From NCBI RefSeq assembly GCF_024704835.1, contig NZ_JAMXBE010000001.1, positions 310,001 through 374,000 of the forward strand: a stretch of DNA of 64,000 bases, in the 5' to 3' direction. This DNA comes from Parapedobacter tibetensis (GTDB lineage Bacteria > Bacteroidota > Bacteroidia > Sphingobacteriales > Sphingobacteriaceae). A program made the position numbers and the translations under genes. Positions 24,398 through 34,927 of the stretch are shown here, piece by piece. The notes under the pieces were generated by a model, which did no database searches, was not told where the DNA came from, and was given only the letters and a program-made list of their open reading frames with translations. Position 1 is the first letter of the stretch. Every line of letters starts with the position of its first letter.

Positions 24398-24775
24398 TTA
24401 CTCTTCAAAGCCCACAAAAACGTATCCGTCTTCAATCTTGATGGGGTATGTCGCGATGTCGCAGGTCTCACCATTAAGGTTTTTACCCGACTTGAGGGAG
24501 AATGTTTTCTTATGGAAAGGGCAAGCAACCTTGGGTTCATCCGCATCCGAACCGATCATGCCCCGTGACAGGGCCATTTGCATTTTGTGGGGACATAGGT
24601 TTTGGCAAGCATACCACTCCTTTCTTCTTGCAAAATTGAAGATTGCGATTTGGAGGTCTTTATATTTGATACAAGCCCCGCCATTTTCCGGGAAGGCATC
24701 TACCGGAGCCGCCCTATACCAAGTAGACACTTTGGTTACTTCCGTTGTTTTGTATTTTTCCAATTCAAAAATCAT
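24398..24775 (-). CDS. nirD: Nitrite reductase small subunit, Rieske-type
   Basis: Small partner of NirB in NADH-dependent assimilatory nitrite reductase. The 125-residue protein has a Rieske fold, and all four [2Fe-2S] ligands appear present: C61 and H63 (NLCPHKMQ) and C85 and H88 (ACPFHKKTFSL). Many NirD proteins have lost these ligands, so this one may carry a cluster. It is preceded by nirB after a 120-base spacer, larger than usual, that contains a palindrome. Confidence 0.93.
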   Translation of the reverse strand: MIFELEKYKTTEVTKVSTWYRAAPVDAFPENGGACIKYKDLQIAIFNFARRKEWYACQNLCPHKMQMALSRGMIGSDADEPKVACPFHKKTFSLKSGKNLNGETCDIATYPIKIEDGYVFVGFEE

Positions 24776-24895: not shown

Positions 24896-27391
24896 TTAAC
24901 TCCATGATGCTGGAATCTTTTGCCCCCGCATTTCCTGAAACTCCAATGAGGGATCCGATTCATCCGAATTCACAAAAGACTTGAATTTGGCACGCAATTC
25001 GGGATTATTCACCACCTCTTTCCATTCACAGGAATACGTCTGGACCATGAACGCCATATCGTTTTCCAGCTCTTCCCCGATACCCAAGGAATCATTGACC
25101 ACCACATCCCGCAGGTAGTCCAGCCCCCCCTCCAATTTATTGAGCCAAGTGGCTGTACGAGTGAGGGGTTCGGCCGTCCTGATGTAAAACATCAGGAACC
25201 TGTCGATGTACTTGAGACAGGTTTCACTATCCACATCCGTGACCAGCAATTTGGCATGTTGTGGCTTCGATCCGCCATTGCCACAAACGTAGAGATTCCA
25301 GCCTTTTTCCGTGGCTATGATACCAAAGTCTTTGCTTTGGGCTTCCGCGCATTCACGGATACATCCGGAAACCGCCCCTTTGAGTTTATGCGGCGATCGG
25401 AGTCCCCGGTATCGTTCCTCCACGCGTATGGCAAAAGACACAGCGTCCTGTACACCATAGCGGCACCATGTAGTTCCCACACAACTTTTAACGGTTCTCA
25501 ACGATTTGCCGTAAGCATGGCCGCTCTCAAACCCGGCATTGATGAGCTCTTCCCAAATATCCGGCAACTGGTCTACCCTGGCACCGAACATATCTATCCG
25601 TTGACCACCTGTTATTTTTGTATAAAGCCCATACCTCTTGGCGATCTCGCCGATGACAATCAGCTTATCCGGCGTGATTTCACCCCCGGGGATTCTTGGC
25701 ACCACAGAATAAGAACCTCCTTTCTGGATATTCGCCAGAAAACGGTCATTGGTATCCTGGATGGTATCTTGTTTGACAATCAATTCGTTCCACGTACTGG
25801 CAAGAATGGAGGCGACCGCAGGTTTGCATATCTCGCAGCCGTCTCCTTTGCCATATTGGTCTATTAATTGGTTAAATGTTCTGATTTTTTTGATTTTCAC
25901 CAAATCCAGCAATTCTTGCCGGGAATAGTCAAAATGCTCGCAAAGTACATTTTTGACCTGCTTGCCCATCACCTTCAATTGATGTTTGAGCAGGTCATTG
26001 ACCATAGGAAGGCAGCCACCACATCCTGTACCGGCTTTTGTGCAGGCTTTGATATCGGCGATTTGTGTCAGCCCATCTTTTTCAATGGCCATGCAGATTG
26101 CCCCTTTACTGACGTTTTCACAGGAACACAGCTGTGCTTCGTCCGGCAAACTCTCCACCCCGGCGCCGACCATTTCCCCACCGCCCCTGTTTCCTAGAAT
26201 CAAAGCCTCCGGCTCCGGTGGCAGGGCCATGTTATTTTGTACCATCTGCAGGAGCATGCCATAGGCAGAAGCATCGCCAACCAGAATACCACCCAAAAGC
26301 TTTTTTCCATTGGCAGCGATGTTAATCCTTTTGTAAATTCCCTTTACCTTATCTTCAAAAACAATCGGCTTGGAAGGCTCCGCATCGCCAAAAGGGTCTC
26401 CAAAACTTCCTACATCCACACCGATTAGCTTGAGTTTGGTAGACATATCATAGCCAAAAAATGGTTTGACCTCCGCCTCCGTCAATTGGTTTACCACTTG
26501 GGCAGCCATTTCATACCCCGGGGCTACCAATCCATAAATCATGTTTTTGTAAGATGCAACCTCCCCTATCGCGTAGATGGATTCATCGGTGGTCTGCAAA
26601 AACTCATTGACAACCACCCCACCCCGCGCAGCGACTTCCAGTCCACATGCCTTGGCAAGCTCGTCACGGGGCTTGATTCCTGCCGAGACCACTAGCATAT
26701 CGACGGCCAATGCTGAGCCATCTGCAAATTGTAAACCCGTTAGCTGCTCTTCTCCATTGATTTGTTGCGTACTTTTACTTAGATGAATTGAAATACCTAG
26801 GCTTTCTAGTTTTGATTGGAGGATGGATGACCCTGCGGCATCAAGCTGACGGGGCATTAGCCTGGGGGCGAATTCGATGACATGGGCTTCTAGTCCCATA
26901 TCCATGACCGCCTTGGCTGCTTCCAGACCCAATAGTCCGCCACCCATCACGGCTGCGGATTTCGCTTTTCTGCCATACGTCATGATTGCATCCAAATCCT
27001 CCAAGGTACGGTAAACAAACACCCCAGTCTTCTCCACTCCTGGGATCGGTGGCACAAATGCCGCAGAGCCGGTGGCAAGAATAAGTTTATCATAAAAAAC
27101 TTCCACACCACTGTGGCTTACCACTTTCTTATGCTCACGGTCTATATGCACCACCAGTTCGTTGGTAAGCAGTTCAATCTGATTTTCCTGATACCAGCCT
27201 TTCGAAGCCATGATCAGATCATCGGCTGTGGATCCCGAAAAATAAGCACTTAGGTGTACCCGATCATAAGCTGGCCAGGTTTCCTCCCCAAATACGGTAA
27301 TTTGGAAATCTTTTCTATTGGAGGTAGCGCATAGTTTTTCGCAAAACTTATAGCCTACCATTCCATTTCCGATTACTGCTATCCTTGTCAT
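24896..27391 (-). CDS. nirB: Nitrite reductase [NAD(P)H] large subunit
   Basis: Reduces nitrite to ammonium in the cytoplasm. The 831-residue protein has an FAD/NAD(P) part (IAVIGNGMVGYKFCEKL at the start; AVMGGGLLGLEAAK near 150), a BFD-like [2Fe-2S] domain with C422, C424, C457 and C460, a second BFD-like segment near 485-530, and the sulfite/nitrite reductase half domain (about 555-620, GGEITPDKLIVIGEIAKRYG). The siroheme-[4Fe-4S] ligands are C637, C643 (KSCVGTTWC), C677 and C681 (SGCIRECAEA). It is divergent from cobA, which makes the siroheme precursor, and shares a 118-base regulatory region with it. Confidence 0.97.
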   Translation of the reverse strand: MTRIAVIGNGMVGYKFCEKLCATSNRKDFQITVFGEETWPAYDRVHLSAYFSGSTADDLIMASKGWYQENQIELLTNELVVHIDREHKKVVSHSGVEVFYDKLILATGSAAFVPPIPGVEKTGVFVYRTLEDLDAIMTYGRKAKSAAVMGGGLLGLEAAKAVMDMGLEAHVIEFAPRLMPRQLDAAGSSILQSKLESLGISIHLSKSTQQINGEEQLTGLQFADGSALAVDMLVVSAGIKPRDELAKACGLEVAARGGVVVNEFLQTTDESIYAIGEVASYKNMIYGLVAPGYEMAAQVVNQLTEAEVKPFFGYDMSTKLKLIGVDVGSFGDPFGDAEPSKPIVFEDKVKGIYKRINIAANGKKLLGGILVGDASAYGMLLQMVQNNMALPPEPEALILGNRGGGEMVGAGVESLPDEAQLCSCENVSKGAICMAIEKDGLTQIADIKACTKAGTGCGGCLPMVNDLLKHQLKVMGKQVKNVLCEHFDYSRQELLDLVKIKKIRTFNQLIDQYGKGDGCEICKPAVASILASTWNELIVKQDTIQDTNDRFLANIQKGGSYSVVPRIPGGEITPDKLIVIGEIAKRYGLYTKITGGQRIDMFGARVDQLPDIWEELINAGFESGHAYGKSLRTVKSCVGTTWCRYGVQDAVSFAIRVEERYRGLRSPHKLKGAVSGCIRECAEAQSKDFGIIATEKGWNLYVCGNGGSKPQHAKLLVTDVDSETCLKYIDRFLMFYIRTAEPLTRTATWLNKLEGGLDYLRDVVVNDSLGIGEELENDMAFMVQTYSCEWKEVVNNPELRAKFKSFVNSDESDPSLEFQEMRGQKIPASWS

Positions 27392-27509: not shown

Positions 27510-28304
27510 ATGACACACGAGCCAAAACTCACCCTACTTGGAGCTGGGCCGGGAGACCCGGATTTAATGACCCTGAAGGGCGTTAACGCGCTGAATACGG
27601 CTGATGTGGTGTTATATGATACCCTTGCCAATGAGGCGTTGTTGGCACATGCCCCGGCAAAAGCCTTGAAACTATTCGTTGGGAAAAGATCAGGCAAGCA
27701 CTGCGTACCGCAGGAAGAGATCAATCAGCTTATTGTCCACTATGCTTATACCCATGGTCATGTCGTCCGTCTTAAAGGCGGGGATCCATACGTATTTGGG
27801 CGAGGTCATGAAGAATTAGCCTATGCCGATAGGCATGGGATTCCAGTAGCGTACATTCCTGGTATAAGCAGTGCGGTGTCGGTGCCGGGTCTTAACGGTA
27901 TTCCATTGACCAAAAGAGGCGTGAATGAAAGCTTTTGGGTAGTGACGGGCACATTGACGGATGGGAGTATAGCGAAGGACCTGTATTTAGCGGCGCAATC
28001 GTCTGCTACCGTGGTGATTTTGATGGGGGTAAAGAAGTTGCCGGAAATTGTCGCAATCTTCAAGAAATACAGGGGAACGGACGAATGCATTGCAGTGATC
28101 CAAAATGGAAGCAAAGACACTGAAAGACGCATTTTTGGGGAAATGGGAAATATCTTGAATATTCAAGAGGAAGCTCAGATAGGTGCCCCGGCCATTATCG
28201 TTATTGGGAAGGTGGCTGGGGAGCCTTTGGGTTCGGATAATTATCGCTTTCGTCCTCATCAGGTCTTTTGTGCAGACATTGAAAATCCTTTTCCACCAGA
28301 ATAA
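27510..28304 (+). CDS. cobA: Uroporphyrinogen-III C-methyltransferase (siroheme branch)
   Basis: Methylates uroporphyrinogen III to precorrin-2, the precursor of the siroheme needed by NirB. The 264-residue protein has the SUMT motifs: LLGAGPGDPDLMTLKG at the start, VVLYDTLAN, VRLKGGDPYVFGRGHEE, YIPGISSAVSVPGLNGIPLTHR-type block (here with TKRG) and the C-terminal GAPAIIVIGKV. About 29 residues beyond that point are not typical and are encoded antisense to the end of the DUF7009 gene; the two genes overlap tail to tail by 104 bases. Dehydrogenase and ferrochelatase steps are not encoded in the window. Confidence 0.95.
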   Translation: MTHEPKLTLLGAGPGDPDLMTLKGVNALNTADVVLYDTLANEALLAHAPAKALKLFVGKRSGKHCVPQEEINQLIVHYAYTHGHVVRLKGGDPYVFGRGHEELAYADRHGIPVAYIPGISSAVSVPGLNGIPLTKRGVNESFWVVTGTLTDGSIAKDLYLAAQSSATVVILMGVKKLPEIVAIFKKYRGTDECIAVIQNGSKDTERRIFGEMGNILNIQEEAQIGAPAIIVIGKVAGEPLGSDNYRFRPHQVFCADIENPFPPE

Positions 28305-28587
28305 GTATTTCATGATCCGTGTTTTCTCCTTGAACATGCCGAAGCGACACCAAGTCCGTATCGGTCCAAGTCTTAGCGAGGGTCGAAGGGACGAAGACGA
28401 CCAAGTCGTTGGGTGTGTAACGCGCACTTATTGATAAAGAATCCGCCGCCGTGGCCAAGCTATATCCAAAATTAACATCCTCATTCATCGTCAAGGTTTG
28501 CCGTACAGGCTCCCCCCTTCCTATTTGCTCCACTTCGGCTTGAGTAAGCCGAAGCCGAATTGTATTTCCACTGATTCTTAGTTTCAT
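28201..28587 (-). CDS. DUF7009 family protein, nitrate-locus associated
   Basis: Small soluble protein (128 residues) starting MKLRISGNTIRLRLTQAEVE. A conserved-looking C-terminal segment ends in ILVEKDFQCLHKRPDEDESD, which I recall from the DUF7009 family. No enzymatic motif is recognised. It starts six bases after the rubredoxin-tailed gene and so belongs to the nitrate reductase operon; an accessory role in assembly or regulation is possible but unproven. Its last 104 bases lie antisense over the end of cobA. The conserved tail argues that this gene, rather than the cobA extension, is selected there. Confidence 0.7.
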   Translation of the reverse strand: MKLRISGNTIRLRLTQAEVEQIGRGEPVRQTLTMNEDVNFGYSLATAADSLSISARYTPNDLVVFVPSTLAKTWTDTDLVSLRHVQGENTDHEILILVEKDFQCLHKRPDEDESDNYPNPKAPQPPSQ

Positions 28588-28593
28588 TCGTTT

Positions 28594-30024
28594 CTAGCTC
28601 ATGATTAACTTAAAGGCAGATTTCGGACTATCGCAGACCGGACAACAATAGGCATCGGACAACTTCATGAAGGAGGTTCCTGATGGGATATCGGCTTCCG
28701 CGTCTCCGAATTTTTCATCATAGACCGTAAGGCAATTAGCACATTGGTATTTACGGTGCTGTTTCACGACCGTTTCTACACCACTTTCTGTGGCTTCGGA
28801 TGGCTTTCGGGCTTCCAATTGGTCATAGTACTTATAGCTCAGTTCAATTAATAGCGGAGGCAAGGTTTCCTTGGGCACCTTCTTCGCGTAGTAGAAATAC
28901 TCCGAAAGATTGGGATTGAAGTCTTTGGAATAAAGTATATTGAAGGTGTCCGCATCGCTTTCTTTTTCCTTCTTAGCCTTTTCGATGGCCACGGAAGTAA
29001 ACAGCGACATATGCTGGGTCTTGATGGAGAAACTCAGGCCATAGGTGCTGATGTCCTGCTTATCCAGTGCCCTTACCAGGTAATTTTTTATCTCCAGCGC
29101 TTCCTCATCCAAAACCGGCAAATGCCAATTGAGTTCCAACGAGCTATGGCGGATATTGATACCAAACTTCCCGAGAAGCTTTTCCCAACTGAGCCGGTCT
29201 TTTTCAGCAATGCCCTTCACGATAATGGATTTCCAAGGTGTAAGGCTGATTTTACCAATATTGGTTTCGATGCACAGTTGGCATAGCGCCTTTAGGAAAT
29301 TAATATTGAACTCATTGTTTCTCCAATACAATCCCAACCAATATTTCCCGCCCACAATGCGGTTCATCCCCTCATAATAAGGGGATGTAGCTTCAGGATA
29401 TACCAATTCCTGTTCCACGGCATGGGTATCGGGAGCAACCGCCGATTTGACCTTTTGATAGATTTCGGGATAGCTCAAATGACCTGTCAATGGATCAAGG
29501 TCTTCAATGGCTTTGGATATTTTGGCCAAGTCATACCCATAAATCAGATCTGGCGCACACCATGGCTTGGAATCCAAATCGGCGAACCTCAGGTAGAGAT
29601 ACCAGTAGTTGTCTTCGGAAGAGGCAACAAAATTGATATTACCGGTAAAAAGCGGGACCAGCGTTTGGACGGGATCCGTAATGTTGATTTTGAGTTTGGG
29701 TTTATAGTCAAACGTGTCGAGGATATAATGGTAGGTATGAGATGCCAACCAGTGGGTGGTAGGCATCACGTCCAGCGCCACATAGGAAGTCATGATATTC
29801 TGAAATTCCTCGCCACCGGTGTCATAGTCTGTATTGATGGCACTGAAGGTTGTATCCAAGGTTTCCGAATTCTTATTCTTCGAAGGGAAAAGTATATCCT
29901 GCCGGGAACCTAAATGCACGTAACTGGCGCCCAGTTCGTTGGCCGTCTGGATGGTTCTTTGAAAATCCCCTGGAGAAATAATCCCGCCTTTGACAAACAC
30001 CCTGACTAAATCTACTTTCTTCAT
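28594..30024 (-). CDS. Rubredoxin-tailed protein with nitrite/sulfite-reductase-like half domains
   Basis: The 476-residue protein has no exact functional name. Residues 2-47 (VRVFVKGGIISPGDFQRTIQ, then VHLGSRQDILF) resemble the ferredoxin-like half domain of NirB in this window (GGEITPDKL and KITGGQRIDMF). A second copy is seen near 225-275 (GKISLTPWKSIIVKGI). The Cys-x5-Cys and Cys-x3-Cys ligands of the siroheme-[4Fe-4S] centre are not found. The C-terminus is a complete rubredoxin: C428-x2-C431 and C461-x2-C464, with the canonical 33-residue spacing. It lies 8 bases after the nitrate reductase gene. I infer an electron carrier or docking partner for nitrate reductase. Confidence 0.72.
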   Translation of the reverse strand: MKKVDLVRVFVKGGIISPGDFQRTIQTANELGASYVHLGSRQDILFPSKNKNSETLDTTFSAINTDYDTGGEEFQNIMTSYVALDVMPTTHWLASHTYHYILDTFDYKPKLKINITDPVQTLVPLFTGNINFVASSEDNYWYLYLRFADLDSKPWCAPDLIYGYDLAKISKAIEDLDPLTGHLSYPEIYQKVKSAVAPDTHAVEQELVYPEATSPYYEGMNRIVGGKYWLGLYWRNNEFNINFLKALCQLCIETNIGKISLTPWKSIIVKGIAEKDRLSWEKLLGKFGINIRHSSLELNWHLPVLDEEALEIKNYLVRALDKQDISTYGLSFSIKTQHMSLFTSVAIEKAKKEKESDADTFNILYSKDFNPNLSEYFYYAKKVPKETLPPLLIELSYKYYDQLEARKPSEATESGVETVVKQHRKYQCANCLTVYDEKFGDAEADIPSGTSFMKLSDAYCCPVCDSPKSAFKLIMS

Positions 30025-30032
30025 GTTTTATG

Positions 30033-33000
30033 CTAAGATAGGCATGATTTTTCAAAAATAAACTCATCGAGCATGTGTTTCACTTCGGGTTTGCAACTTC
30101 CGCACCCTATCCCGGCGCCGGTTTGTTGACACAATTGCCTGAATTCTTGGCAACCGGACTGCATGGCCTTGACAATGTTTCCCCTACCTACATTGCCACA
30201 AGAGCAGACCAGCTCTCCGATTATTTCCACTTTGGCAACGTTGCCCCTGAGCAGCTCCTGCCGCTTTTTGGAAAGTTCGGTCCTTTCTTCAATCAGACTT
30301 TTGAACTCCGCAAATTCGGATTTATCCCCCATGAGGATAGCACCCACCAACCGATCTTGGTGTACAATGCATTTTTTATAGTAAGTCTGGCTGGTGTCTA
30401 TCAATAGGATTTCCTCATAACCTTCCCCATTGGCGGGGATTTCCGGGATACCCACAGAACATAGGTCGAGTTCTGCAAACTTGAGGATGTTCAGGGATAC
30501 TGACCCACGGTAAATGCTCAACAGGTCGCCAGATAGATACCTTGCGGCATGGTCTGCCTGGGCTTCCGCAGCGGCGGTGATGCCATTGAGCTTACCGTTG
30601 TGCTCAGCGATTTCCCCCATTGCAAAAATAGCTGGATCCTCGGTCTGTAGGTAATCGTTGACTTTGATTCCTCTACCACAGGCAAGGCCTGCAGACTTCG
30701 CCAATTCGATATTGGGTCTTGTGCCTATGGCATAAACCACTGCATTACATTGGATGGTTTTCCCGCTTTTAAGGTAAACTGAATTTTTCTTTTCCTCCGG
30801 ATGGGGAACAATACGGTCCACTTGGTTGTTCATGAAGAGCTGCACCCCCATTTCTTCAATTTTTTCCCTGAGCAGGGAACTGGCCATGGGATCCAATTGC
30901 CGTTCCATCAGCCTCGACCCAAGTTGTACAATGGTCACTTCCACATCGATTTCTCGGAGCGCGGCGGCCAATTCCAATCCCAATAGACCACCACCCACGA
31001 TTAACACGTGGCCTTGATAGCCCAAGTATGCTTTCAGTTCATCTGCATTTTGGCGGTTGCGCATGGTGAAAACCCCGGGTAGGTGCATCGGTACATCGCC
31101 GGGCACGAAAGCCCGACTGCCTGTGGCTAGAATCAATGTATCATAATGGTGTACTCTCCCCTTTTCATCTGTAACCGTTTTATTGGACCGGTCGATGGAC
31201 TCAACACCATTCTCAATGAATAAGCTGAAATTCAGCATATCCATTTCATTGTTTGATTTAAACTTCTGCAAATCCGCCCATGTCCGGTGCTGGTTGACAT
31301 AGTCTGGCAGCAACACCCGGTTATAGAAAGGGTGTTTTTCCTTAGAAAACACCAATATTTCATCTTCCTGGTTAAATTCCCGATACGTATTGATGAAACG
31401 GTAAGCAGCTGCCCCCGCTCCCACAATGACGATTTTCTGCTTGGGATTCTTGTAGCGGGCCACCTGCACTGCGGTATACTTGAAATCGGGTTGTTTTGAC
31501 ACCGGATCTATGGCATTACCTGTCAGGTTATTCGCCCGGGCAAAGTCATTATGCAATATTTTACCCCAATGCATGGGTAAGAAAACCACACCCCTTTTAA
31601 TCTTATCGGTAACCCGGGCATGCACGCGCACTTCCCCCCGGTTTCCTTCAACCAGTACGGTGTCTCCCTCACTAATACCTCTTCCTGACGCATCATCCGG
31701 ATGGATTTCCAAGAAAGGATCGGGTATATGTTTGGTGAGTCTGCTGACTTTTCCGGTACGGGTCATGGTATGCCATTGATCCCGAATCCGTCCCGTGGTT
31801 AGAATGAGTGGGAAGTCTTCGCTCGTTTTTTCGCATTCGTTCTTCGGACCAGGGGTCAATATTTGGGCTCTACCATTTGGTGTATAGAATTTCTTATCGG
31901 TAAAAAGCCGTTTAACGGTTTCTTTTTCATGGCCTACAAAAGGCCATTGCACAGCCCCCTTGGTCTGGAGGTAATCGTAGTCAAGGCCGGAGATATCCAT
32001 GTTGGTCCCTTTTGTCAATTGCACGTACTCGGCACATACTTCCGACATGTTTTGGAACTCAAAGCCATGGAAGCCCATCTTCCGGGCAAATCGAATCAAG
32101 ATTTCCGCATCGGGAAGCGCTTCCCCTGGAGGCTGATTGAATTTGCTGAGGTAGCTGATTCGCCGTTCGGAGTTGGTCATTGTCCCCTCCTTTTCGCCCC
32201 ATCCTGCTGCCGGGAGTACCAAGTCAGCATAGGGAATGGTTTCCACTTTGTTGGAAATATCTTGTACGACCACAAATTTGGCCTTTTTCAATGCTGCTTC
32301 TACTTTCCGGGCATCGGGGAGGCTTACCAAGGGATTGGTACAGATGACCCAAACGGCCTTGATGCTCCCTTCCTCCAACGCTTCAATGAGTTGCGTGGCC
32401 GTCTTTCCGGGTTTATCGGGCAGGCTTTCCACGCCCCAAAACTTAGCTACTTCATCCCTATGGGCAGGATCAGCCAAGTTTCTGTGGGCAGCCAACAACG
32501 TGGCCATGCCCCCCACCTCACGACCACCCATGGCGTTCGGCTGCCCGGTAAGGGAAAAAGGACCTGAACCTGGTTTACCGATGTGTCCTGTGATTAGGTT
32601 AAGGTCGATCAACGCCAAGTTTTTATTGACCCCTTCGGCACTTTGGTTCAGCCCCATTGACCAAAGGGTCATGAAACCTTTGGCATCACCGATGAAGGAG
32701 GCGGCTTTTTTGATGTCTGCTACGGTGAGCCCACAAACGGCCGCGGCTTTTTCCAGGGAAGTTTGCATAACCACCTCCTTATAAGCCTCAAAGCCATCCG
32801 TATGGCCCTCGATAAAGCCGATGTCTATATCCCCTTGTTCGATTAAGCACCTGCCGATGGCATGGAACAGAGTTTCATCCATACCAGGATTGAGCTGCAG
32901 GTGCAGGTTTGCCAAGGCGCAGCTCTGTGTTACCCTCGGATCGGCCACGATGATTTTGACTCCCGGATTTTGCTCCTTGTGTTGCTCAATCCTCCTCCAT

Positions 33001-33557
33001 AAAATAGGATGGCACCAGGCCGGATTGGCTCCAGCCACAAAGAAGCAATCCGCCAGTTCAATATCTTCATAAGCAATGGGCACGCTATCTTCTCCCAAGG
33101 TTTTGATATAGCCCATAACGGCCGAACTCATACACAGCCTGGAATTGGTATCCAGGTTATTGGTTTTCAAGAAGCCCTTGGCCAACTTGTTGACCAAATA
33201 ATATTCTTCTGTAAGGCATTGGCCCGAGACATAAAAGGCGACTGCATCTGGCCCGTATTTCTCGATGATGGACTTGAACACGGCGCTGGCCCTATCCAGG
33301 GCAGTATCCCAGCTCACCTTTTCCAGCGGATGCGACTTGCCCCAGCGCATCTGGGGATATAGCAGCCTGTCGGACTTGTCAGCAATCACATAGTGGAGGT
33401 TCATCCCTTTAGAACATAACATCCCTTTATTGACGGGATGGTGGGGATCTCCTTCTACGGTGACCTTGCCTTTTTTGTCCTTACGCACAATGATGCCACA
33501 ACCAACACCGCAGTAGGAACAAGTACTTTTAAAGCTTTCTGCCTCTTTTGTTGACAT
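30033..33557 (-). CDS. Assimilatory nitrate reductase fused to NirB-like flavoprotein and BFD domain
   Basis: Cytoplasmic reductase of 1174 residues that joins catalytic and electron-input parts. Residues 1-700 are a NasA-type molybdopterin oxidoreductase: [4Fe-4S] ligands C13, C16, C20 and C48, and likely Mo ligand C142 (TNSRLCMSSAV). Residues 705-1090 are an FAD/NAD(P) oxidoreductase with IVIVGAGAAAYRF near 709-721 and VLIVGGGLLGLELAAAL near 851, closely similar to NirB of this window. Residues 1115-1165 are a BFD-like [2Fe-2S] domain (C1118, C1120, C1152, C1155). The fusion should let NAD(P)H electrons reach the molybdenum site in one chain. It is preceded by the nitrate transporter gene (17-base gap). 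Confidence 0.93.
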   Translation of the reverse strand: MSTKEAESFKSTCSYCGVGCGIIVRKDKKGKVTVEGDPHHPVNKGMLCSKGMNLHYVIADKSDRLLYPQMRWGKSHPLEKVSWDTALDRASAVFKSIIEKYGPDAVAFYVSGQCLTEEYYLVNKLAKGFLKTNNLDTNSRLCMSSAVMGYIKTLGEDSVPIAYEDIELADCFFVAGANPAWCHPILWRRIEQHKEQNPGVKIIVADPRVTQSCALANLHLQLNPGMDETLFHAIGRCLIEQGDIDIGFIEGHTDGFEAYKEVVMQTSLEKAAAVCGLTVADIKKAASFIGDAKGFMTLWSMGLNQSAEGVNKNLALIDLNLITGHIGKPGSGPFSLTGQPNAMGGREVGGMATLLAAHRNLADPAHRDEVAKFWGVESLPDKPGKTATQLIEALEEGSIKAVWVICTNPLVSLPDARKVEAALKKAKFVVVQDISNKVETIPYADLVLPAAGWGEKEGTMTNSERRISYLSKFNQPPGEALPDAEILIRFARKMGFHGFEFQNMSEVCAEYVQLTKGTNMDISGLDYDYLQTKGAVQWPFVGHEKETVKRLFTDKKFYTPNGRAQILTPGPKNECEKTSEDFPLILTTGRIRDQWHTMTRTGKVSRLTKHIPDPFLEIHPDDASGRGISEGDTVLVEGNRGEVRVHARVTDKIKRGVVFLPMHWGKILHNDFARANNLTGNAIDPVSKQPDFKYTAVQVARYKNPKQKIVIVGAGAAAYRFINTYREFNQEDEILVFSKEKHPFYNRVLLPDYVNQHRTWADLQKFKSNNEMDMLNFSLFIENGVESIDRSNKTVTDEKGRVHHYDTLILATGSRAFVPGDVPMHLPGVFTMRNRQNADELKAYLGYQGHVLIVGGGLLGLELAAALREIDVEVTIVQLGSRLMERQLDPMASSLLREKIEEMGVQLFMNNQVDRIVPHPEEKKNSVYLKSGKTIQCNAVVYAIGTRPNIELAKSAGLACGRGIKVNDYLQTEDPAIFAMGEIAEHNGKLNGITAAAEAQADHAARYLSGDLLSIYRGSVSLNILKFAELDLCSVGIPEIPANGEGYEEILLIDTSQTYYKKCIVHQDRLVGAILMGDKSEFAEFKSLIEERTELSKKRQELLRGNVAKVEIIGELVCSCGNVGRGNIVKAMQSGCQEFRQLCQQTGAGIGCGSCKPEVKHMLDEFIFEKSCLS

Positions 33558-33574: not shown

Positions 33575-34927
33575 TTAACTGTTTGCAAATTCGGGCTGCA
33601 ATTCTTTTTCAGCCAAGAGCTCGTCCATCTCCACTTTCGTAACTTGTTCGTCCGCTTTGGAGAATTGGATCAGCAAGGCGGCTGAACTGATGATCGCCAC
33701 GGCAATACCTAAAATGGCTAAGGCCCCGCTATATGAAAGGGACTCGATTTTAAGAAGGAATCCGGCCAGTACTGCACCCACATTGCCTCCTGCCCCTACA
33801 ATACCGGAAACTACACCGAGGGCTTTTTTATTGATGAATGGTACCACTGAGTAGGTAGCACCTTCTGCCATTTGGACAAAGAGGCTGAACAAGATCATGG
33901 TACCGATGGCCAAGGGTAAAAAGGTCATCTGAGAAAACAGTATCAATGACAACCCCTCTACAAAAACCACACCTCCCAAAAACAATACCCTGCCTTTCAG
34001 CCCCCATTTGATCCCGATCTTGTCGCCATAAATTCCACCCAGCGATCGCGCAAAAAGATTCATCAAGCCGAAAAGACCAGCAATCAGCCCCGCTGTTTTC
34101 AGGTCAAGCTTGAAAAAGTCATGGTAATAGATGGCGGCAATGTTATTGATGGTCAGTTCGATGCCGAAGCAGGCCCCATAGATGAGGAATAACGCCCAAA
34201 CCCGCTTATCCTTGATGGCAGTCAGGAATGCACCTTTTCCTTCCTCCTTTTTCTTTCGCTTGTAATCCAAGTCGGTCTTACTCAGGTTTGCGATATTCCC
34301 TTCCGGAAAATCTGTCGTCCATTTATAATAGGCAATTCCACAAAGTATCATGGCCACACCAGGCACGACCATGGCATATCGCCAGGCGTCCGTAGCGATA
34401 AAGCCAAGGGAAACAAACAGGGCAAAGATTATGGGCATGACCATTTGGGTGATGCCTCCCCCCAGGTTACCCCAGCCAGCAGACGTCGCATTGGCCGTTC
34501 CCACCACATTTGGGGCAAACATCACGGAGGTATGGTACTGGGTGATGACAAAGGAAGCACCGATTACCCCGATGGCTAGGCGGAAAATCAAAAAGGATTC
34601 GTAACTGGTGCTCATCCCAATGAAAATAACCGGCAGTGCACCCAACACCAACAAATACGTATAGGTAATCCGAGGGCCTATCCGGTCGACCAGCCAACCG
34701 ATAAACAACCTGGCAATTACTGTAATGGCTACGGAAGCAATGATGATGTTGCCAATTTGTGATTTGCTCAGGTCAAGTTCTTCACGGACGATGGCCATCA
34801 GCGGAGCGATCCCGAACCATCCGAAAAAACAAAGGAAGAAAGCGATCCACGACAAGTGAAACGCACGCATTTGTGGAGACTTGAAATCTAATAAGTTAAT
34901 CGTTGTTGCTTTTTTTGGGGATTTCAT
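33575..34927 (-). CDS. NarK-type nitrate/nitrite MFS transporter
   Basis: Inner-membrane carrier (450 residues from the ATG at 34927, 12 hydrophobic segments). The start of helix 1 reads MRAFHLSWIAFFLCFFGWFG with IAPLM following, typical of the nitrate/nitrite porter family. The nitrate-signature glycine-rich segments appear as GWGNLGGGITQMVMPIIF and IVGAGGNVGAVLAGFLL. The frame is open back to 35053, but that upstream stretch overlaps the porin gene and has no family match. It lies between the porin and the nitrate reductase in the same operon and should bring nitrate into the cytoplasm. Confidence 0.95.
   Translation of the reverse strand: MKSPKKATTINLLDFKSPQMRAFHLSWIAFFLCFFGWFGIAPLMAIVREELDLSKSQIGNIIIASVAITVIARLFIGWLVDRIGPRITYTYLLVLGALPVIFIGMSTSYESFLIFRLAIGVIGASFVITQYHTSVMFAPNVVGTANATSAGWGNLGGGITQMVMPIIFALFVSLGFIATDAWRYAMVVPGVAMILCGIAYYKWTTDFPEGNIANLSKTDLDYKRKKKEEGKGAFLTAIKDKRVWALFLIYGACFGIELTINNIAAIYYHDFFKLDLKTAGLIAGLFGLMNLFARSLGGIYGDKIGIKWGLKGRVLFLGGVVFVEGLSLILFSQMTFLPLAIGTMILFSLFVQMAEGATYSVVPFINKKALGVVSGIVGAGGNVGAVLAGFLLKIESLSYSGALAILGIAVAIISSAALLIQFSKADEQVTKVEMDELLAEKELQPEFANS

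Follow-up and report, generated by a model that had tools for sequence, protein, structure and literature searches.

Bacterial assimilatory nitrate reductases draw on several kinds of electron partner, namely the NasB diaphorase, the NasG Rieske protein and flavodoxin or ferredoxin donors. Nitrate is used on a large scale by marine and soil Bacteroidota, and we found no paper that describes the make-up of their NADH-linked nitrate reductase. The fold of the siroheme sulfite and nitrite reductases (SiR/NiR) and the rubredoxin are each known singly. Their combination in one protein, the loss of the catalytic ligands and a strict linkage to one class of nitrate reductase are undescribed in searchable papers, and literature searches returned no description of this architecture. 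The nas operon of A. mediterranei was considered as a precedent for a rubredoxin component, which is unsupported, as NasE in that operon is described as a homologue of NnaR (PMC10704036).

Here we describe such a protein, a rubredoxin-tailed pseudo-nitrite/sulfite reductase (RUBSIR), from Parapedobacter tibetensis. Its gene lies in a 64,000-nucleotide stretch of contig NZ_JAMXBE010000001.1 (the window), to whose first letter the following positions refer:

28594..30024, minus strand: RUBSIR gene; open reading frame with its ATG at 30024, encoding 476 amino acids, with relatives across Bacteroidota and Balneolota
28804..30009, minus strand: RUBSIR residues 6–407, predicted complete two-repeat SiR/NiR fold without the cluster cysteines (AlphaFold2, VIA-align)
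29884..30009, minus strand: first ferredoxin-like half domain of RUBSIR, residues 6–47, with R8 and the invariant R41 (Pfam NIR_SIR_ferr, 5.6e-9; alignment with CysI)
29200..29376, minus strand: second ferredoxin-like half domain of RUBSIR, residues 217–275 (second NIR_SIR_ferr stretch; CobG and NirA profile matches at 207–296)
28603..28755, minus strand: rubredoxin tail of RUBSIR, residues 424–474, with Cys 428, 431, 461 and 464 (Pfam, 5.2e-14; structural Z 9.9)
30033..33557, minus strand: NasA-type molybdopterin nitrate reductase fused to a NirB-like NADH diaphorase with FAD and a BFD [2Fe-2S] domain (Pfam)
28201..28587, minus strand: DUF7009 gene, 6 bp downstream of the RUBSIR gene (Pfam, 9.1e-35)
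24896..27391, minus strand: nirB, large subunit of siroheme nitrite reductase (NCBIfam TIGR02374)
24398..24775, minus strand: nirD (TIGR02378)
27510..28304, plus strand: cobA, uroporphyrinogen-III methyltransferase of siroheme synthesis (Pfam TP_methylase; PGAP name of relatives)
33575..34927, minus strand: narK-type nitrate/nitrite MFS transporter, start inferred (open reading frame; same position and name in relatives)

The surroundings of the gene form a nitrate assimilation cluster, with narK, nirB, nirD, cobA, a PilJ-type sensor kinase, a LuxR regulator and molybdenum cofactor genes. The nasA fusion gene, which encodes the proposed partner, lies 8 bp upstream. Public annotation names proteins of this type 'rubredoxin' only. 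Recurrence of the DUF7009 gene beside RUBSIR is limited to some of the Cytophagales clusters (Cyclobacterium/Echinicola-type loci), and a DUF7009 gene also occurs near the nitrate cluster of genome G066. On a Hymenobacter plasmid (L180:8974-11828), cobA and a DUF4202 gene come next after a nitrate cluster bearing RUBSIR.

An earlier note, made from the sequence alone, had read the open reading frame as two NirB-like half domains joined to a C-terminal four-cysteine rubredoxin. The coordinates and the rubredoxin were right, and NIR_SIR_ferr indeed matches in two stretches (5.6e-9, the better at residues 7–47), next to the rubredoxin match at 425–471 (5.2e-14). The siroheme/4Fe-4S domain PF01077 gave no Pfam match in RUBSIR. 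Across 45 relatives searched with Pfam, NIR_SIR_ferr was found in all 45 and rubredoxin in 40, with PF01077 in none.

The half-domain reading understated the extent of the fold. An AlphaFold2 model built from a 45-sequence alignment had a pLDDT of 88.8, and its sole poorly defined region was the linker before the rubredoxin (residues 407–420), which is predicted to be disordered. Foldseek placed Mycobacterium tuberculosis NirA first (E 1.1e-19), ahead of SiRHP and plant nitrite reductases. With VIA-align, residues 6–407 superposed onto residues 81–546 of E. coli SiRHP (Z 29.8; 381 residues; r.m.s.d. 3.3 Å) and onto residues 90–540 of M. tuberculosis NirA (Z 25.2), while the tail matched Desulfovibrio gigas rubredoxin (Z 9.9; 0.9 Å). 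The structure prediction that the note had proposed as a check thus gives an NIR/SIR-like fold over residues 6–407, and in the model the body of RUBSIR is a complete two-repeat sulfite/nitrite reductase fold. Because the match to SiRHP runs over the full length, two free-standing or isolated half domains are ruled out. Profile matches fall equally on CobG, NirA and larger SiR-like proteins, and so do not single out NirA as the ancestor of the body.

Compared with the siroheme nitrite and sulfite reductases (NirA, CysI/SiRHP and plant NiR; PF03460, PF01077), RUBSIR shares the fold over its whole length and both PF03460 half domains, at 11–15% identity. In contrast to them, it lacks the cysteines of the cluster and siroheme and the PF01077 domain, has lost the residue at the R153 position, and carries the added rubredoxin tail. 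As the note had stated, the siroheme-[4Fe-4S] ligands are absent: aligned with E. coli CysI and NirA, RUBSIR has a gap in place of the loop that holds cluster cysteines one and two, and other residues stand at the positions of the remaining pair. Not one of the four occurs in the 125 relatives that were used for all conservation counts of the body. Only two well-conserved cysteine columns occur in the body, C248 (118/125) and C251 (125/125), neither at a ligand site. A C248-x2-C251 metal knuckle is doubtful, because C248 is replaced by M or S in 7 of the 125.

Other positions of the body are strongly conserved. R41, N76, S80, W92, N114, Q120, E218, W229, C251 and K313 are invariant, and H293 is kept in 124/125; the second half domain alone (217–275) holds the invariant E218, W229 and C251 and the near-invariant C248. 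The basic residues that bind substrate and anions in SiRHP are R83, R153, K215 and K217. RUBSIR has R or K at the R83 position in 122/125 relatives and at the K217 position (K112) in 123/125. At the R153 position the arginine is lost to Q, P or E, and the K215 position is variable, with an uncertain exact register on that strand. The invariant residues point to strong selection and not to a decaying relic, and a decaying pseudogene is also at odds with the open reading frames kept in hundreds of relatives. From sequence conservation, this argues for a maintained function other than siroheme catalysis. RUBSIR clearly exemplifies a metalloenzyme fold that has lost its metal centre and is still under strong selection.

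The tail shares the fold and the four cysteine ligands of rubredoxins (PF00301), and C428, C431, C461 and C464 are invariant in all 122 tail-bearing relatives, on which the counts for the tail are based. It differs from rubredoxins in being a domain of a larger protein and in its signature: after the first C-x2-C most members have L, M or F where a glycine is usual, and Tyr replaces Trp before the second C-x2-C (117/122). In two genomes (G481 and G285; loci L073 and L076) the stretch that joins the two C-x2-C knuckles of the rubredoxin is drastically shorter, with the four cysteines kept.

The retained fold and pocket residues raise the question of whether siroheme or another tetrapyrrole is still bound in the body, with no iron–sulfur cluster, for a role as siroheme carrier or as redox or NO sensor. 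The invariant C251 and the conserved H293 (124/125) are possible ligands, and cobA lies nearby. However, with the first cluster-cysteine loop a gap and the second pair replaced, the usual proximal thiolate is gone, and genomes that have NirB without NasA lack RUBSIR. We consider this role very unlikely.

The distribution of RUBSIR follows that of the NasA fusion. In a sample of 101 genomes from the host family, RUBSIR occurs in 33, exactly those 33 with the full-length NasA fusion, and 68 have neither; in a phylum sample of 395 genomes, 28 of 29 RUBSIR carriers have the fusion, these and the following occurrence counts being uncorrected for shared ancestry. The exception (G222) has RUBSIR at a contig edge, without the rubredoxin tail and without NirB. 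A further six host-family genomes have NirB without the NasA fusion and without RUBSIR. Where the fusion and NirB occur together, RUBSIR is present in 26/26 genomes tested and NirA in none. Conversely, RUBSIR is missing from all five genomes whose NasA fusion is more distant (0/5), with NirA above the family cut-off in 5/5 and NirB in 0/5. The presence and absence of RUBSIR here follow deep clades and may so amount to few events.

Gene order is equally strict. In 80/80 named loci the RUBSIR gene adjoins nasA, on its downstream side and always with the four-cysteine tail, and the gap is often 0–60 bp or −4 (overlapping stop and start). The co-occurrence that the note had named as a check is thus borne out, and RUBSIR is not broadly found without the nitrate reductase. 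The named loci come from Bacteroidota and Balneolota, plus one metagenome-assembled genome (MAG) labelled Rickettsiales; occurrence outside the two phyla was judged from a GTDB scan, from the best 80 of 540 relatives. The MAG locus (L119, titled 'Rickettsiales bacterium isolate NP5') has a Cytophagales-type cluster and is probably mislabelled. Virus-borne RUBSIR copies were searched for and not found.

Pairwise identities among 25 loci that hold RUBSIR, NasA and NirB were used as a test of coevolution. RUBSIR and NasA distances correlated with r 0.90, and with 0.65 given NirB, whereas the RUBSIR–NirB correlation given NasA was 0.13. By this measure NasA, not NirB, is the protein with which RUBSIR coevolves. 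A role as NirB partner is unsupported on this ground and because genomes with NirB but without NasA lack RUBSIR. The suggestion in the note that RUBSIR acts between reductases is weakened accordingly; its position next to nasA stands. Taken together, RUBSIR is very likely a dedicated partner of NasA, and its sequence and genomic context make it a probable accessory subunit of the nitrate reductase that has gone unrecognised.

One way to explain the association with NirBD would be that RUBSIR couples the two enzymes, its old anion pocket binding nitrite and passing it from NasA to NirBD to avoid leakage. RUBSIR occurs only where the NasA fusion and NirBD are both present, and not with NirA or with NirB alone; the basic pocket is also partly kept (R83 position 122/125, K112 123/125, N114 invariant). 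Such a hand-over would account for the NirBD association but not for the weak coevolution with NirB, almost none of which remains once NasA is allowed for. It would also leave the rubredoxin tail without a role, and the SiR R153 position is lost. We therefore regard nitrite hand-over as improbable.

Instead, we tentatively propose, with somewhat less than even confidence, that RUBSIR serves the NADH-linked assimilatory NasA fusion in Bacteroidota and Balneolota as an accessory subunit that docks on it and relays electrons. The pseudo-reductase body would dock on NasA, probably on its NirB-like FAD/[2Fe-2S] diaphorase module and much in the manner of a genuine siroheme domain. The rubredoxin, a one-electron centre on a flexible tether, would take up or buffer diaphorase electrons for nitrate reduction. 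The body would then serve as the anchor and the rubredoxin as the mobile redox group. This proposal draws on the strict linkage to NasA (33/33, 80/80 and 26/26) together with the coevolution, and on a body that has the fold (Z 29.8) and no cluster cysteines yet keeps invariant residues, joined to a rubredoxin with all its ligands (122/122). The diaphorase of NasA is moreover of the NirB/NADH:rubredoxin-reductase type, including PF18267 (Pfam), and the disordered prediction for linker 407–420 is the basis for the tether. Like NasB, NasG and the flavodoxin and ferredoxin donors, RUBSIR would be a redox protein dedicated to the reductase, with its gene next to that of the catalytic subunit; its fold and predicted cofactor differ from theirs, and it would be additional, since a diaphorase is already fused to NasA.

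Several observations speak against this docking and relay role. The NasA relatives that are paired with NirA work without RUBSIR. The full complement of cluster and Mo cysteines is present in NasA whether or not the genome has RUBSIR, which rules out that RUBSIR supplies a redox centre lost from NasA and leaves no missing relay for it to fill. Finally, three rubredoxin-less paralogues persist alongside normal copies. These proteins of about 415 amino acids (L031:2236-3483, L032:17320-18567 and L033:1959-3212) form a clade inside the second of the two subfamilies in the RUBSIR tree. Their genes lie beside a porin gene and a sensor kinase, in two of the three with kinase, LuxR and nirBD genes directly next, and the same genomes hold a normal nasA-linked copy. 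No rubredoxin-like stretch that could represent a split rubredoxin gene was found near them. The electron shuttle or dock suggested in the note fits the data, but given the complete redox cysteines of NasA and the natural tail-less copies, a pure shuttle or simple wire is doubtful.

That NasA needs no extra redox centre would also suit a maturation or stability factor, similar to the NarJ chaperone or cyanobacterial NarM, in which the rubredoxin-like site holds iron or zinc structurally. Strict one-to-one adjacency to nasA and coevolution are in keeping with this, as are the members with shortened rubredoxin loops and all four cysteines. On the other hand, the rubredoxin fold is canonical, the likeness of the body is to a redox enzyme rather than to any known chaperone of molybdoenzymes, and the NirA-type NasA relatives manage without RUBSIR. 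No Pfam or NCBIfam match to a NarJ- or NarM-type chaperone was found in RUBSIR, although a chaperone role would not need homology. We judge a maturation role unlikely; together with nitrite hand-over it is the main rival to the docking and relay subunit.

More broadly, a cofactor-stripped nitrite-reductase fold with a rubredoxin could be an obligatory subunit that lets NADH-linked NasA work with NirBD, as redox anchor or in nitrite hand-over. Nitrate assimilation throughout Bacteroidota and Balneolota would then include a new class of component; we put this forward as a possibility, short of an even chance. A conserved, misnamed putative subunit beside every main-clade NasA enzyme is a concrete and testable missing part, and the natural split between NasA with NirBD (RUBSIR present) and NasA with NirA (RUBSIR absent) offers a direct comparison.

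The P. tibetensis RUBSIR cluster groups with Cyclobacteriaceae (Echinicola, Cyclobacterium; 85% identity in the body). In the family to which the host is assigned, most of the other members have the other subfamily, and horizontal transfer is therefore possible. In one of the clusters that combine NasA with NirA, an open reading frame of about 204 amino acids beside nirA (L079:11984-12598) encodes a flavodoxin of the CysJ type. Its N-terminus resembles that of NirA and is possibly a tether, and similar-sized open reading frames lie beside nirA in three further NasA and NirA clusters (L080, L081 and L082).
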